Virus record (IMG/VR): IMGVR_UViG_3300046517_001002
Location: 1 to 40,764 of that record
DNA from: a virus
Strand: one strand, 5' to 3'
Length of the DNA stretch: 40,764 bases
The position numbers were made by a program, and so were the translations under genes. Below are positions 4,696 to 40,764 of the stretch, piece after piece. The notes beneath the pieces were generated by a model. That model searched no databases. It worked only from the letters and a program-made list of their open reading frames with translations, and was not told the DNA's origin. Each line of letters starts with the position of its first letter. Positions within the stretch are counted from its first letter, which is position 1.

Positions 4696-5001
4696 TCACT
4701 GGAACAGATCCGCTTGCGCCGCCGACGCCGGGCGCGGTTGGTTGGTGCTCCAGTTGGCCTCGCACATCGCATGGCAAAACCAGCGGTATATCTCGGTCGC
4801 CCGGTCGGGCGCGGTGAGCGGCACGCGTCGGCTCGCGCCGGGAGCGCCGCAGAACCCGCAGGCGTAGTGAGGCGTGGCATGGGCCTCGACCATCTCGCGC
4901 AGGGCTTTGGCGCAGTACGTCTCGTCACCGATTGGGCCATGCGCCCGCCGCACCGCGTCCAGCGCGTCCTGTAACGCCTGCCGTCGCGCGTCGGCGTTCA
5001 T
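4696..5001 (-). CDS. Hypothetical protein with possible zinc-binding cysteines
   Basis: This 101-residue protein starts at ATG 5001, which overlaps the stop of the 28-residue membrane peptide gene (ATGA). It has a helical N-terminal half (MNADARRQALQDALDAVRRA) and two cysteine pairs, YACGFCGAP and WFCHAMCEAN, about 27 residues apart, which could bind one zinc ion. The C-terminus is short and glutamine-rich. No family was recognised. It is the last gene before the hairpin region at 4563-4608, with about 90 bases of non-coding sequence between. Confidence 0.65.
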   Translation of the reverse strand: MNADARRQALQDALDAVRRAHGPIGDETYCAKALREMVEAHATPHYACGFCGAPGASRRVPLTAPDRATEIYRWFCHAMCEANWSTNQPRPASAAQADLFQ

Positions 5002-5084
5002 TGCACGAGCGCCCAGAGCGCCCACAGCCACACGCCCACGACGGCGGCGGCGACGGCCCGCGCGGCGAGCGGCAGGTGGCTCAC
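4998..5084 (-). CDS. 28-residue single-span membrane peptide
   Basis: A GTG at 5084 overlaps the previous stop (GTGA) and the TGA at 5000-4998 overlaps the next ATG (ATGA). The peptide reads MSHLPLAARAVAAAVV followed by GVWLWALWALVQ, one hydrophobic helix rich in Trp at its end. Perfect coupling on both sides is the main evidence that it is translated. A small membrane-active role is possible; nothing more can be said. Confidence 0.5.
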   Translation of the reverse strand: MSHLPLAARAVAAAVVGVWLWALWALVQ

Positions 5085-5260
5085 GCCCCGATCTCCGGCT
5101 CGGCGAACGCCCGCTCGGCCCGCTCGTCTTCAGGATCGGCGACCGGATGCCGCGCCACGAGCGCCGCTTCGTCCGCCATTTCCCGCTGTCGGCGCATCAC
5201 GCGCCCGACGACGCGGGCCATGGCCTCACTGATCGGCACGAAGTCGCGGAGCGGGGTCAT
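5081..5260 (-). CDS. Hypothetical 59-residue protein
   Basis: The ATG at 5260 overlaps the preceding stop (ATGA) and the stop overlaps the next GTG start. The product begins MTPLRDFVPISEAMARVVGR and is a charged helical protein ending in an acidic stretch. No family was recognised. It belongs to the run of small early genes downstream of the Cro-like regulator. Confidence 0.6.
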   Translation of the reverse strand: MTPLRDFVPISEAMARVVGRVMRRQREMADEAALVARHPVADPEDERAERAFAEPEIGA

Positions 5261-5688: not shown

Positions 5689-5703
5689 GCGGCCAGATCA
5701 GCA

Positions 5704-5722
5704 TGCTTACCTGTGGTAAGCA
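5704..5722. promoter_or_regulatory. Operator 1, perfect palindrome
   Basis: TGCTTACCTGTGGTAAGCA is an 8-bp perfect inverted repeat with a 3-base centre, lying just upstream of the Cro-like gene. Nearly identical 19-bp sites occur at 5733-5751 and 6232-6250. The position between divergent CI-like and Cro-like genes makes it a very likely repressor operator. Confidence 0.8.
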
Positions 5723-5732
5723 ACCCCGGTGT

Positions 5733-5751
5733 TGCTTACCTGTGGTTGACA
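5733..5751. promoter_or_regulatory. Operator 2, overlapping likely CI promoter
   Basis: TGCTTACCTGTGGTTGACA shares its first 14 bases with operator 1, while its right half is degenerate. That half forms TTGACA (5746-5751), a consensus -35 element pointing rightward to the CI-like gene. No good -10 element sits 17 bases further on (AACAGT at 5769). Binding here would directly affect CI transcription. Confidence 0.7.
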
Positions 5752-5765
5752 AACCGGCCAGAGGA

Positions 5766-5819
5766 ATGAACAGTGGGACGGTTGTGGGCTGCATGAACAG
5801 TGGGACGGTTGTGGGCTGC
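5766..5819 (+). repeat. 27-bp perfect tandem duplication carrying ATG
   Basis: The unit ATGAACAGTGGGACGGTTGT plus GGGCTGC occurs twice head to tail (5766-5792 and 5793-5819) immediately before the ATG of the CI-like gene. It is in frame, so starts at 5766 or 5793 would add two or one copies of MNSGTVVGC to the repressor. It may equally be 5' untranslated sequence. Confidence 0.85.
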
Positions 5820-6197
5820 ATGGACATTGGTGACCGTATCGCCCTGGCGCGCGGTCTCGTTGGTCTGTCTCAGACGGACCTCGCAGCCATGCTCGGCGTC
5901 AGCCGGGGCCTCGTCGGGCAGTGGGAAAGCCACAGAAAAAAGCCGGGCCGGGAGAACGTATCGAAAATCGCCCAGGCCACGCTCGTCGGCGTGGGGTGGC
6001 TGATGGGCGAGGACGACGCCGCGATGGACCGGCTAACAATCCGCCCCGACGCCGACCAACTCGCCATGCTGCGTTATTTCGCTCGGCTGCGGCCGATCCC
6101 GCGCGAGAATTTCCTCGAGGGCATTGCTCGTACCGCCGACATGCCGGATAAAATTGAAGCGGAAAGCGAACCAGTCGAAGGCCAGATCATGGTCTGA
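5820..6197 (+). CDS. CI-like XRE-family repressor
   Basis: This 125-residue protein begins MDIGDRIALARGLVGLSQTD and has a classic XRE/Cro-CI helix-turn-helix (LAAMLGVSRGLVGQWESHRK, about residues 18-40), then KIAQATLVGVGWLMGEDD. The C-terminal region lacks a visible LexA-type protease domain, so if it is a prophage repressor it is a short type without obvious RecA-induced self-cleavage. In-frame ATGs at 5766 and 5793 lie in a tandem duplication. No clear ribosome binding site separates the three, and I chose the start where family sequence begins. Two operators precede the gene and a third follows it, so it likely represses both the leftward early operon and the rightward genes from 6282. Confidence 0.85.
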   Translation: MDIGDRIALARGLVGLSQTDLAAMLGVSRGLVGQWESHRKKPGRENVSKIAQATLVGVGWLMGEDDAAMDRLTIRPDADQLAMLRYFARLRPIPRENFLEGIARTADMPDKIEAESEPVEGQIMV

Positions 6198-38092: not shown

Positions 38093-38353
38093 ATGACCAC
38101 CTACACCCTGATCATCGCCGAGAATTACCTGCTGACGACCATCCCTGACGGGTCCGACATCGAGGCCGCGATCGAAGCGGCCGTCGCGGATGCCCGGATT
38201 GAGCGGGAGGACCGCTACGACGTGGTGCCGGGCTGCGTGCTGACCGATGACGAGCCGGAGGACGACGCCGCCATCGCGTGGCGTAGCGGCGGCAACGGCT
38301 GGACCATGGACGAAAGCGGCCAGGACTGGCGTTTCGCGGTGCGCGGCGCATGA
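38093..38353 (+). CDS. Hypothetical 86-residue acidic protein
   Basis: The ATG at 38093 follows AAGGAA by eight bases. The acidic product begins MTTYTLIIAENYLLTTIPDG and continues SDIEAAIEAAVADARIERED. Its stop overlaps the next gene (ATGA). The low charge and small size would suit a DNA mimic or inhibitor, but nothing specific supports that. Confidence 0.65.
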   Translation: MTTYTLIIAENYLLTTIPDGSDIEAAIEAAVADARIEREDRYDVVPGCVLTDDEPEDDAAIAWRSGGNGWTMDESGQDWRFAVRGA

Positions 38354-38703
38354 CCTTCGCCCCTCTTTCGCTCCCCGTCGCCGCGGCCCTGGACGCCCCT
38401 GAGAGGCCCGTACAGCCTCCCGAGGCTCCCGCCGCTGTCACCCACGCCCCGGCTCCGTCCCTGCCCCCCGGCGCCCGTCTGAGCGCCGCCTTGCGGACGA
38501 TCCGCTGGACGGTTGGCGTTCTCGCGGTTGAACTCGGCCTCAGTCCGTCCACGACGCGCAACTGGACGTTGGGTCGGCAGCCGATCGCGCCGGAGATCCT
38601 GGCGTGGGTCGAGGATCTCGCCGCGTGTCACGTCAGCCGCCCGCCGCCTCCGGTGCCTGACGGTCGAGTGCCGATCCTGAAGCCGCCCGCTGGCACGGGG
38701 TAG
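38350..38703 (+). CDS. Helix-turn-helix DNA-binding protein
   Basis: The 117-residue product has a proline-rich N-terminal 38 residues. A helix-turn-helix domain of the phage regulator type follows (RLSAALRTIRWTVGVLAVEL, GLSPSTTRNWTLGRQPIAPE, ILAWVEDLAA). Similar domains are common in short regulators of high-GC alphaproteobacterial phages. It is the third gene of the operon behind the 37746 promoter. Its last 76 bases overlap the convergent 38628-38987 gene. It may control the divergent region upstream of 37814. Confidence 0.65.
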   Translation: MTFAPLSLPVAAALDAPERPVQPPEAPAAVTHAPAPSLPPGARLSAALRTIRWTVGVLAVELGLSPSTTRNWTLGRQPIAPEILAWVEDLAACHVSRPPPPVPDGRVPILKPPAGTG

Positions 38704-38987
38704 CGCCTCGCGGGCTTCCTGACCGCCTCCGGGCGCGCTGGCGGGGCATACCACCGTTGTAGCGCGGCCAGTTGGCGGCGTTCCTCTCTGGCGTGCGGGT
38801 TCGTGCTGTTGAGGCGGACGAGGCCGCGCCGGGCGGCTGTCTCCTGCGGGTCGATGATTTCGATGCCGAGGTCGCGGCGCATATGCTCGCGGATGGCGTC
38901 GGCCGAGAGCGGCGTGCGGCACCACAGGTGCTCGAACGCCTCCCAGGCCTCGGGGGTCATGAACGGGGCGCGGCGTCGGGCGTTCAT
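38628..38987 (-). CDS. Hypothetical basic protein
   Basis: The ATG at 38987 gives 119 residues. They include FMTPEAWEAFEHLWCRTPLS and ADAIREHMRRDLGIEI, possibly a helix-turn-helix, then a basic, Pro/Gly-rich tail. The weak ribosome binding site and the long convergent overlap with the gene at 38350 lower confidence. It lies downstream of the iteron array and transcribes away from it. Confidence 0.5.
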   Translation of the reverse strand: MNARRRAPFMTPEAWEAFEHLWCRTPLSADAIREHMRRDLGIEIIDPQETAARRGLVRLNSTNPHAREERRQLAALQRWYAPPARPEAVRKPARRYPVPAGGFRIGTRPSGTGGGGRLT

Positions 38988-39050
38988 CGCCGGGGCGCGG
39001 ACCACAACCGCCAGTTGTTCAGGTAAGCCGCCTCTGGGCTGCCACAATTT

Positions 39051-39238
39051 GGGACAAAATTAGTTTTGTCCCACCCCCTATTTTGTCCCACCCAAGCCCG
39101 GCTCTCCCCGGTGGGCTGGGACAAACATGGGGGGTATGGGACTAAATACGTAGTATTTTGTCCCACCCCTATTTTGTCCCACCCTTCCGGCCGGGACAGA
39201 ATTAGTTTTGTCCCACCCGACCCTATTTTGTCCCACCC
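39051..39238. repeat. Iteron array with palindromes (putative replication origin)
   Basis: Six exact copies of TTTTGTCCCACCC start at 39064, 39081, 39156, 39172, 39206 and 39226. Partner inverted half-sites GGGACAAAA, GGGACTAAA and GGGACAGAA precede three of them (39051, 39138, 39193), making palindromes such as GGGACAAAA-TTAG-TTTTGTCCC. Another GGGACAAA lies at 39118. The result is three modules, each palindrome plus a direct copy. The array begins 8 bases after the RepA-like helicase stop. Iterons beside a RepA helicase suggest an origin of replication; a multi-site operator is the alternative. No gene is convincing across it. Confidence 0.75.
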
Positions 39239-39246
39239 CCCCAAAT

Positions 39247-40353
39247 TCATGGAATGGAGACCCAACCGTCGGTTGCAACAACATGACCTTGAGCGATCAG
39301 AACGTCACGGTCTCGACGGAAGGATTTACGCTTGGTCTCGGGTGGATCGTCCGGGGCGGTTTCTCGGAAGACGGCATCGCGCCACAGCGCCACGGCGACT
39401 GGTTGTAGGCTATTCTCGTTGAGGATACGAGCCAGGATTTCGAGCACTTTGTCAATGCGTCTCGCGTTTGACTTTCGTCCAACGCCGTTCTTTGGCATGG
39501 GTGTTTCGTCGGGTGCGAGGGGGACGAGGACGCAGGACGAGACTGGTTCGCCGGACGCGTCGATGATGTCCTTGACGACTTCGAGGCGGAACGGGAACGG
39601 CTCGGACGCGGCGTCGTCCTTGGCCTCTTCGATTGCCCATGTGTGGCTTTTGTCTTCCATTTTCTGGACCATGACGAGGGTATCCGCGGCGCCCATGAGC
39701 GAGACGGAGCCGGCGGGCGAGGTGCCGCTCTTGCTGGTATGGTGGACGAGGGCGACGGCGCAGCGTCCGTCCGCTATGGCCTGGGCGGCGCCGACGTAGG
39801 CGTTCATGTGGCTGCTGTCGTTGACGTTGCCGCCGCCGAAGGAGCGGAACACGGTGTCGATGATGACCAGCACCGGCGCCTGTCCGTAGTGTTGTTCGGT
39901 TTCGGTTATGGCGTGCTGGATGTCGTCGGGGTTCGGCACCCAGGCGTAGCCGCGTCCGTCGTCGTTTCGGATCAGCATGGGTCGTCCGGTGGCCAGCGCG
40001 AAGTGATTGGGGACGTTGCGTGCGGCCTGGAGGCGTTTCCAGAAGCCGCCGTGTCCTTCGCAGGCGACGTAGAGGACGGGTCCGTGCTGGAGGATACGTT
40101 GTCCCATCCAGTAGTCGATATCCGGGTCAGCGACGGCGAGCGCGGCCGAGGTGACCAAGAACGACTTGCCGCTTTTCGGCAGTCCGTAGAACAGCGTGAT
40201 TGAGCCTTTGTGGAACAGTCCGCGGACGACGGTTGTCTGGTCTGGCGCGGCGATCGCGGCGTCGGCGCCGAACGCGAGCGTGAGCCTGACCGGGGTACGT
40301 TGGGCGGCTTTGTCGCCGGCGAGGGCGTAGACGCGGTCTGAGTAGAGATCCAC
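39247..40353 (-). CDS. RepA-like RecA-fold helicase
   Basis: The GTG at 40353 was chosen because AAGGAGG lies 11 bases upstream, within the end of the preceding gene; GTG 40383 is an alternative. The 368-residue product has Walker A GLPKSGKS (residues 57-64) and Walker B VLVIIDTVFRS, with ALVHHTSKSGTS and ADTLVMVQK beyond. This is the AAA_25/RepA pattern of hexameric replicative helicases of plasmids and phages. A C-terminal region beginning RRIDKVLEILARIL probably forms a winged helix. It likely unwinds DNA at the adjacent iteron array. No primase or polymerase was recognised, so host enzymes would finish replication. Confidence 0.85.
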   Translation of the reverse strand: MDLYSDRVYALAGDKAAQRTPVRLTLAFGADAAIAAPDQTTVVRGLFHKGSITLFYGLPKSGKSFLVTSAALAVADPDIDYWMGQRILQHGPVLYVACEGHGGFWKRLQAARNVPNHFALATGRPMLIRNDDGRGYAWVPNPDDIQHAITETEQHYGQAPVLVIIDTVFRSFGGGNVNDSSHMNAYVGAAQAIADGRCAVALVHHTSKSGTSPAGSVSLMGAADTLVMVQKMEDKSHTWAIEEAKDDAASEPFPFRLEVVKDIIDASGEPVSSCVLVPLAPDETPMPKNGVGRKSNARRIDKVLEILARILNENSLQPVAVALWRDAVFRETAPDDPPETKRKSFRRDRDVLIAQGHVVATDGWVSIP

Positions 40354-40358
40354 GGCAT

Positions 40359-40764
40359 TCAGGCCCTCCTTTTTGCGCGCCACAGCGCGATGTTGAAAGC
40401 GGCGTCGATCATGTCCGGGGGCGCGTTGGCGCTCCGCGCGATATCGGCGGCGGCGTTGGCGGCGGCGATGCGGTCGCGCGGGTCATTGGCGAGGCGTTGG
40501 GTGGCTGCGTCGATCATTTGCTGGCGGACGGCGTGATGGCGCCAGTCGAGCGCGATCATTTCGTCATCGAGCATGGATGCGGCGAGTTCGCGGCAACTGA
40601 CGGAGCGGATGCGTGCGCGTTGGGCGTGGTCGGCGAGTGTGGTGGCGAGTTCCGCCAGCGCGTCCTCGATGCCGTAGACGTTCCAGGCGATGGCGATGGC
40701 GAGTCGTTTGGCGTCGTGTCCGCCCCAGTTACGTAGGGCGGCTGCCTCGGCCCGGTGTGGCGTG
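40359..40764 (-). CDS. Hypothetical protein, C-terminal part (split by contig ends)
   Basis: This is the other part of the 141-residue gene whose start is at 153. The frame is open from the right end and stops at 40359. Across the junction the sequence reads DALAELATTLADHAQRARIR, then MLDDEMIALDWRHHAVRQQM and a helical end NALWRAKRRA-like. The stop lies six bases before the preferred helicase GTG. The last 133 bases duplicate the left end with one synonymous change. The function is unknown. Confidence 0.75.
   Translation of the reverse strand, partial: TPHRAEAAALRNWGGHDAKRLAIAIAWNVYGIEDALAELATTLADHAQRARIRSVSCRELAASMLDDEMIALDWRHHAVRQQMIDAATQRLANDPRDRIAAANAAADIARSANAPPDMIDAAFNIALWRAKRRA
40632..40764. 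repeat. Right copy of terminal direct repeat (circular overlap)
   Basis: This copy is identical to 1-133 except T at 40758 (C at 127). See the left copy for interpretation. The mismatch sits seven bases from the contig end and may be sequence variation or end error. Confidence 0.9.

Follow-up and report, generated by a model that had tools for sequence, protein, structure and literature searches.

The window, by which we mean the whole 40,764-nucleotide stretch of the viral record IMGVR_UViG_3300046517_001002 that was analysed, is stored as a record without end repeats, yet is effectively circular: positions 1–133 and 40632–40764 overlap by 133 bp with one C/T mismatch, and the record thus represents a circularly mapping phage genome of approximately 40.63 kb. 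Its genes include those for TerL, the portal, the major head protein, RecT, Gam, and a CI-like repressor (5703–6197), with a helix-turn-helix (HTH) gene at 38350–38703; the window ORFs that were scanned include no primase. A helicase gene and a closely spaced repeat array lie next to each other, with the following features:

39064–39076, + strand: iteron 1 (TTTTGTCCCACCC), module 1, exact copy
39081–39093, + strand: iteron 2, module 1 direct copy, exact
39156–39168, + strand: iteron 3, module 2, exact copy
39172–39184, + strand: iteron 4, module 2 direct copy, exact
39206–39218, + strand: iteron 5, module 3, exact copy
39226–39238, + strand: iteron 6, module 3 direct copy, exact
39050–39059, − strand: inverted half-site, module 1 palindrome (TGGGACAAAA; given as GGGACAAAA from 39051)
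39117–39125, − strand: inverted half-site, outer arm of the large central dyad (TGGGACAAA; given as GGGACAAA from 39118)
39137–39146, − strand: inverted half-site, module 2 palindrome (TGGGACTAAA; given as GGGACTAAA from 39138)
39193–39201, − strand: inverted half-site, module 3 palindrome (GGGACAGAA)
39117–39184, no strand: central four-half-site dyad centred on ATACGTAGTAT, kept in L007 and L008 with compensating arm changes
39247–40383, − strand: AAA_25/RSF1010-RepA-type helicase, 378 aa, proposed self-targeting initiator (Pfam AAA_25, 1.3e-27)
39250–39474, − strand: predicted C-terminal winged-helix domain, residues 304–378, proposed iteron reader (AlphaFold2 model)
39292–39342, − strand: putative recognition helix, residues 348–364, containing ETKRKSFRRD (placed from the model; covaries with the motif in relatives)

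The six exact iterons reported in a first-pass annotation of this DNA are all present and all on the + strand and, as it also described, the array directly follows the helicase gene: the iteron nearest to the helicase (39226–39238) is separated by 8 bp from the stop codon at 39247 and, because the helicase is encoded on the − strand, the array is on the 3′ side of its gene, occupying positions +8 to about +200 relative to the stop. The inverted half-sites that it took to match the iterons are present, although not all of them are exact (those at 39051, 39138 and 39193), and its division into three modules places the six direct copies correctly but misses the fourth inverted half-site at 39118, with which the middle module becomes the larger, four-half-site dyad. 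The array contains ten half-sites within about 190 bp, with six GGGTGGGACAAAA half-sites pointing in the direction of the helicase gene and four (39051, 39118, 39138 and 39193) inverted. With up to two mismatches allowed, TTTTGTCCCACCC has eight matches in the window compared with 0.57 expected and a maximum of three in 100 shuffles, and the core TTTTGTCC occurs seven times in the 40.6-kb circular genome, in the array only. The AT content around the array is only 0.40–0.52.

The helicase contains an AAA_25 domain only, without a primase domain. Its profile matches RSF1010 RepA (1G8Y; 6.8e-13) and Foldseek matches its core to RSF1010 RepA (1NLF; TMt 0.68), such that both fold and profile place it among proteins with the RecA-fold core of the RSF1010-RepA-type hexameric helicases. 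In an AlphaFold2 model built with 42 sequences the RecA-type core is accompanied by a confidently predicted C-terminal domain with the helix-helix-helix-strand-strand order of a winged helix (helices 304–323, 331–342, and 348–364; strands 369–371 and 374–376), with a mean pLDDT of 86–94 per ten-residue block from residue 311 onwards; this model replaces a three-sequence model that was discarded because of a poor core and Foldseek noise. Sequence and profile searches of Pfam and the PDB returned no credible family that covers the C-terminal domain.

Arrays beside related helicases

Near-DNA searches of phages and plasmids using the window region gave no match, the window helicase found no relative in a search of genome contigs, and the exact tandem-iteron pattern is not matched in viral contigs, as the relatives have changed the core. 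Two IMG/VR contigs encode a helicase with 89% identity and have an array at the same place, in which TGTCCG replaces TGTCCCA as the core and the two arms of each palindrome have changed in concert; in close relatives the architecture is thus kept and the letters drift. More distantly, tblastn identifies AAA_25 primase-helicases in cultured phages (24–31% identity), and a mixed direct and inverted array occupies the gap that follows the gene's 3′ end in two Rhizobium phages (16-3, in which the gene is p101 and the array measures 360 bp, and RHph_X2_25), in Salicola CGphi29 and Idiomarinaceae 1N2-2, and in the Roseobacter CRP phages, with that of CRP-406 spanning the end of the helicase gene. 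Each has its own motif (CGTGACA, GGGGACA, CGGTACA, GTATAAA, CTACAAA, and GGCTGGA). The N-terminal partner of these helicases is either Prim-Pol (16-3, X2_25) or Toprim_3 (Salicola, Idiomarina, CRP-406), and the CRP-831 helicase has no named N-terminal domain; because the N-terminal domains vary, the constant part consists of the motor, the putative reader and the array.

The comparison with related genomes that the first-pass annotation proposed was extended by two core-only queries, which gathered 110 viral loci, and 120 loci were scanned for the best mixed-orientation 7-mer in the 450 bp around and after the helicase stop against 60 dinucleotide shuffles. An array recurs 3′ of the helicase in 104 of the 120 loci, in each of which it beats all 60 shuffles. 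Arrays with at least five copies are present at 97/120 loci, compared with 1/225 upstream or core windows and 0/108 windows further downstream, and inspection by eye of eight weaker loci revealed a degenerate array in seven. Copy numbers of 5 to 19 are seen, and 33 distinct motifs are represented among the 120 loci, which are partly redundant. Phage P4 served as a positive control: crr, its annotated cis-required replication region with mixed type 1 repeats, lies 46 bp beyond the 3′ end of alpha, and was recovered at +52 when scanned in the same way. With the same kind of repeats in P4 crr and more than 100 arrays here, the fixed mixture of direct and inverted iterons is not the unusual arrangement that it had first been thought to be.

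Arrays of this kind are also present on plasmids. A 35-kb Methylobacterium (M. currus) phage-plasmid encodes Toprim, an AAA_25 helicase and ParA, with eight CGCAACA copies at +5 and no other Rep in its PLSDB annotation; in Caenibius p1 twelve GCGGAAG copies begin at +10, and six TGCGGCA copies are present at +14 in a Klebsiella plasmid of 17 kb. As the PLSDB annotation is incomplete, these three plasmids support an origin function indirectly.

A 3′ array is absent from seven records with related AAA_25 helicases (GB2A, Madraxi, Mae-JY30, a Salmonella houtenae element, Baka, AnClar, and ct76p945), and we note that GB2A (L022) and AnClar (L027) annotate their own DNA polymerase. In ctyzp037 (L021) the densest repeat is inside the helicase gene, with seven TGAACGT/ACGTTCA copies at 5000–5200 between the N-terminal part and the AAA_25 core, and could be either an intragenic origin or a coding repeat. 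At another locus without an array (L130) the helicase reading frame continues beyond its usual end, possibly reflecting loss of the system. Many arrays contain short hairpins flanked by iterons (L016 at 5112–5145, L034, L138, L132, and L140 at about 9850), with a CTTTAG or CTATAG centre about 100–140 bp past the stop. Such a hairpin is a possible priming or melting site; as an independent feature it was dropped, as 39 of 79 beat 12 shuffles and the flanking depends on the iterons.

Co-segregation of the motif and the helicase C-terminus

Several patterns emerge when the motifs are compared with the helicases beside them. First, among pairs of Roseobacter phages with core identities of 85–95%, the C-termini share 77% identity when the motif is the same and 49% when it is different; in the Rhizobium group the corresponding values are 57% and 35%. 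With core identity controlled for, pairs that share a motif tend to have more similar C-termini (partial r 0.41 and 0.70; 0/2000 permutations), whereas the contribution of the core given the C-terminus is small (0.01 and 0.18); adding the downstream gene as a further control changes the C-terminal correlation little (0.36 and 0.70). Secondly, for 21 Rhizobium-group loci the core tree requires 10 motif changes compared with 9.8 when shuffled, and the C-terminal tree requires 7 (with a minimum of 6) compared with 9.7, with none of 200 shuffles as low. The C-terminus adjoins the array and linkage therefore inflates the co-segregation, although the downstream gene does not co-segregate in this way.

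Thirdly, individual genomes can be compared. Roseobacter phages CRP-811/823 and CRP-821/831 constitute a natural swap, with CTACAAA in the former and GTATAAA in the latter; their helicase cores are about 99% identical and their C-termini about 67%, such that C-terminus and motif differ as a block. The window and L009 share 94% identity in the core and 77% in the C-terminus, with the motif changing from TGGGACA to CCGGACA, and between the window and a close relative the modelled recognition helix changes from TKRKSF to TKGKSF. L125 is an informative exception, with a C-terminus of the GTGACA clade (62–65% identity) and yet a GGGACA motif; its helix residues are KKKRFQR, with FQR in place of FNR, those of the GTGACA clade KRQRFNR, and those of the GGGACA clade ARKQFQR. 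At the level of sequence comparison, then, the motif tracks the hypervariable C-terminal domain and not the core, the downstream gene or the nearby wHTH regulator.

The wHTH regulator encoded upstream is ruled out as the binder in the Roseobacter phages, as CRP-831 and CRP-823 differ at one position in its 65 residues and nonetheless do not share a motif, contrary to what would be expected if it were the reader. Among the three binders suggested by the first-pass annotation, these comparisons favour the helicase, which would bind by its C-terminal winged helix. The 38350 HTH protein gains no support, because the arrays of 16-3, Salicola, and the M. currus plasmid have no HTH gene annotated next to them and it is the helicase C-terminus that the motif tracks. 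Nor is a RepL-like protein supported, as Pfam and PHROGs searches of the subset of window ORFs scanned found none.

These observations also bear on whether the array could be an operator, at which a phage repressor or the helicase winged helix controls transcription of the genes beyond it. The sites are palindromic, and the genome encodes both the CI-like repressor and the HTH protein; however, TTTTGTCC is nowhere outside the array, including at the repressor gene, there is no sigma-70-like promoter in 38300–39600, and the gene content beyond the array varies between lineages. With the near-identity of the Roseobacter regulators beside different motifs, and with copy numbers that are high for an operator, we regard this role as improbable.

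A candidate origin and its relationship to known systems

We propose that the array is most probably the phage replication origin, and that it is read by the adjoining helicase via its C-terminal winged helix, with the helicase acting as its own initiator. The earlier suggestion of an origin-like array tied to the helicase is thus supported, as far as the comparison of relatives can indicate. The winged helix would bind each GGGTGGGACAAAA iteron in both direct and inverted orientation, and bound subunits, being clustered, would open the DNA close by and form helicase rings on it, such that a RecA-fold replicative helicase serves as its own initiator; synthesis would then be begun by host primase and polymerase or, in the relatives, by the fused Prim-Pol or Toprim primase domain. 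We infer from the comparisons that physical binding, melting, ring loading, and the start of replication all occur at the array. The GC-skew check that had been recommended lends no support to an origin here, the detrended extremes lying away from the array at 7.9 and 27.2 kb in a genome in which skew is weak and nearly all genes are on one strand. Other points that count against the proposal are the modest AT content of the region, the seven AAA_25 records without a 3′ array, the lack of sequence similarity between the C-terminal domain and that of P4 alpha, and the absence of a primase from the window ORFs scanned.

The closest parallels are with initiator helicases of other families. P4 alpha/crr is like the window in that the helicase gene adjoins mixed direct and inverted short iterons on its 3′ side. 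P4 alpha belongs to a different helicase family from the window helicase, and its C-terminal domain has no detectable sequence similarity to that of the window (hhalign probability 0.1); taken with the predicted winged helix, the likeness is therefore one of fold class only. P4 alpha binds its repeats through a winged helix (PMC4234260). SaPI Rep and SCCmec Cch2 are self-loading helicases, each with a C-terminal domain that recognises iterons lying just past its own gene (PMC7581432), and PICI origins are immediately 3′ of rep (PMC6092414). The window likewise has iterons immediately 3′ of a helicase gene, but the SaPI/PICI helicases are of the DUF927 or Primase_Cterm/D5 families and the window helicase is AAA_25 only, in a setting of tailed phages and phage-plasmids with RecA-fold helicases. 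The system is not a member of the P4 or SaPI systems, which is excluded by helicase family and C-terminal sequence; the best reading of these comparisons is that it would work like P4 alpha/crr and SaPI Rep/ori, on a RecA-fold helicase.

Other systems share single elements. RSF1010 (IncQ) RepA has the same helicase core fold with the match confined to the core, and RSF1010 initiation uses separate proteins, three polypeptides in all (PMC4234260). The pRN1 ORF904 origin is directly 3′ of a primase-helicase with a C-terminal winged helix, an architecture that stays as the sequence varies (PMC4234260). However, pRN1 has an SF3 helicase and a stem-loop without iterons, whereas the window has a RecA-fold helicase and iterons. 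Rep_3-type iteron plasmids such as pPS10 contain iterons plus inverted half-sites; in the window, by contrast, no Rep_3-type initiator was matched in Pfam or PHROGs among the subset of ORFs scanned, and the candidate binder is the helicase.

Besides crr, P4 contains another iteron region, ori1, at a distance from the gene, and the M. currus plasmid encodes ParA, as might be expected if replication in fact began elsewhere and the helicase bound the array for copy control, incompatibility, or partition. We find this hard to credit, to about the same degree as the operator: the window has no second motif cluster, the record phages examined have no annotated partition genes close to their arrays, and in SaPIs the iterons at this position constitute the origin (PMC6092414). 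It is least probable of all that the array acts as an RNA or single-stranded DNA structure, serving either in termination or, like the pRN1 stem-loop, as a hairpin origin, since its strong single-stranded fold (z −6.5 and −7.7) arises because the iterons are inverted and, in spite of the iteron-flanked hairpins of many arrays, direct copies outside the hairpins are equally conserved, the region has no terminator call and no Rfam match, and the motif follows a protein domain.

If the array is an origin read by the helicase, then the origin of an AAA_25-helicase phage could be found just past its helicase gene, and each such phage would provide a recognition helix together with the site that it matches. 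The records of AAA_25 primase-helicase phages that we examined contain no mapped origin and no named initiator, and a 2025 paper on roseophages, five genomes of which are used here, discusses the helicases but says nothing of repeats, iterons, or arrays between genes (PMC12629253). RecA-fold helicases would then be targeted to the origin by a fused domain. To our knowledge, such targeting has been described so far for other helicase families. More generally, we judge it slightly better than an even chance that AAA_25/RepA-type RecA-fold helicases of tailed phages and phage-plasmids find and open their own origins without a separate initiator or loader, with winged helix and iterons diversifying or being swapped as a block beside a near-constant motor, giving dozens of incompatible specificities and a natural recognition code. 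That near-identical motors differ in specificity suggests that selection has favoured either incompatibility among phages that coinfect a cell or escape from interference, an idea that becomes testable, and the covariation of helicase tail and repeat across more than 100 related viruses makes a code linking the two testable. We also note that arrays of TGAGAA and GAGTGT, far from the GGGACA type, are present beside more distant helicases (L137 and L135).
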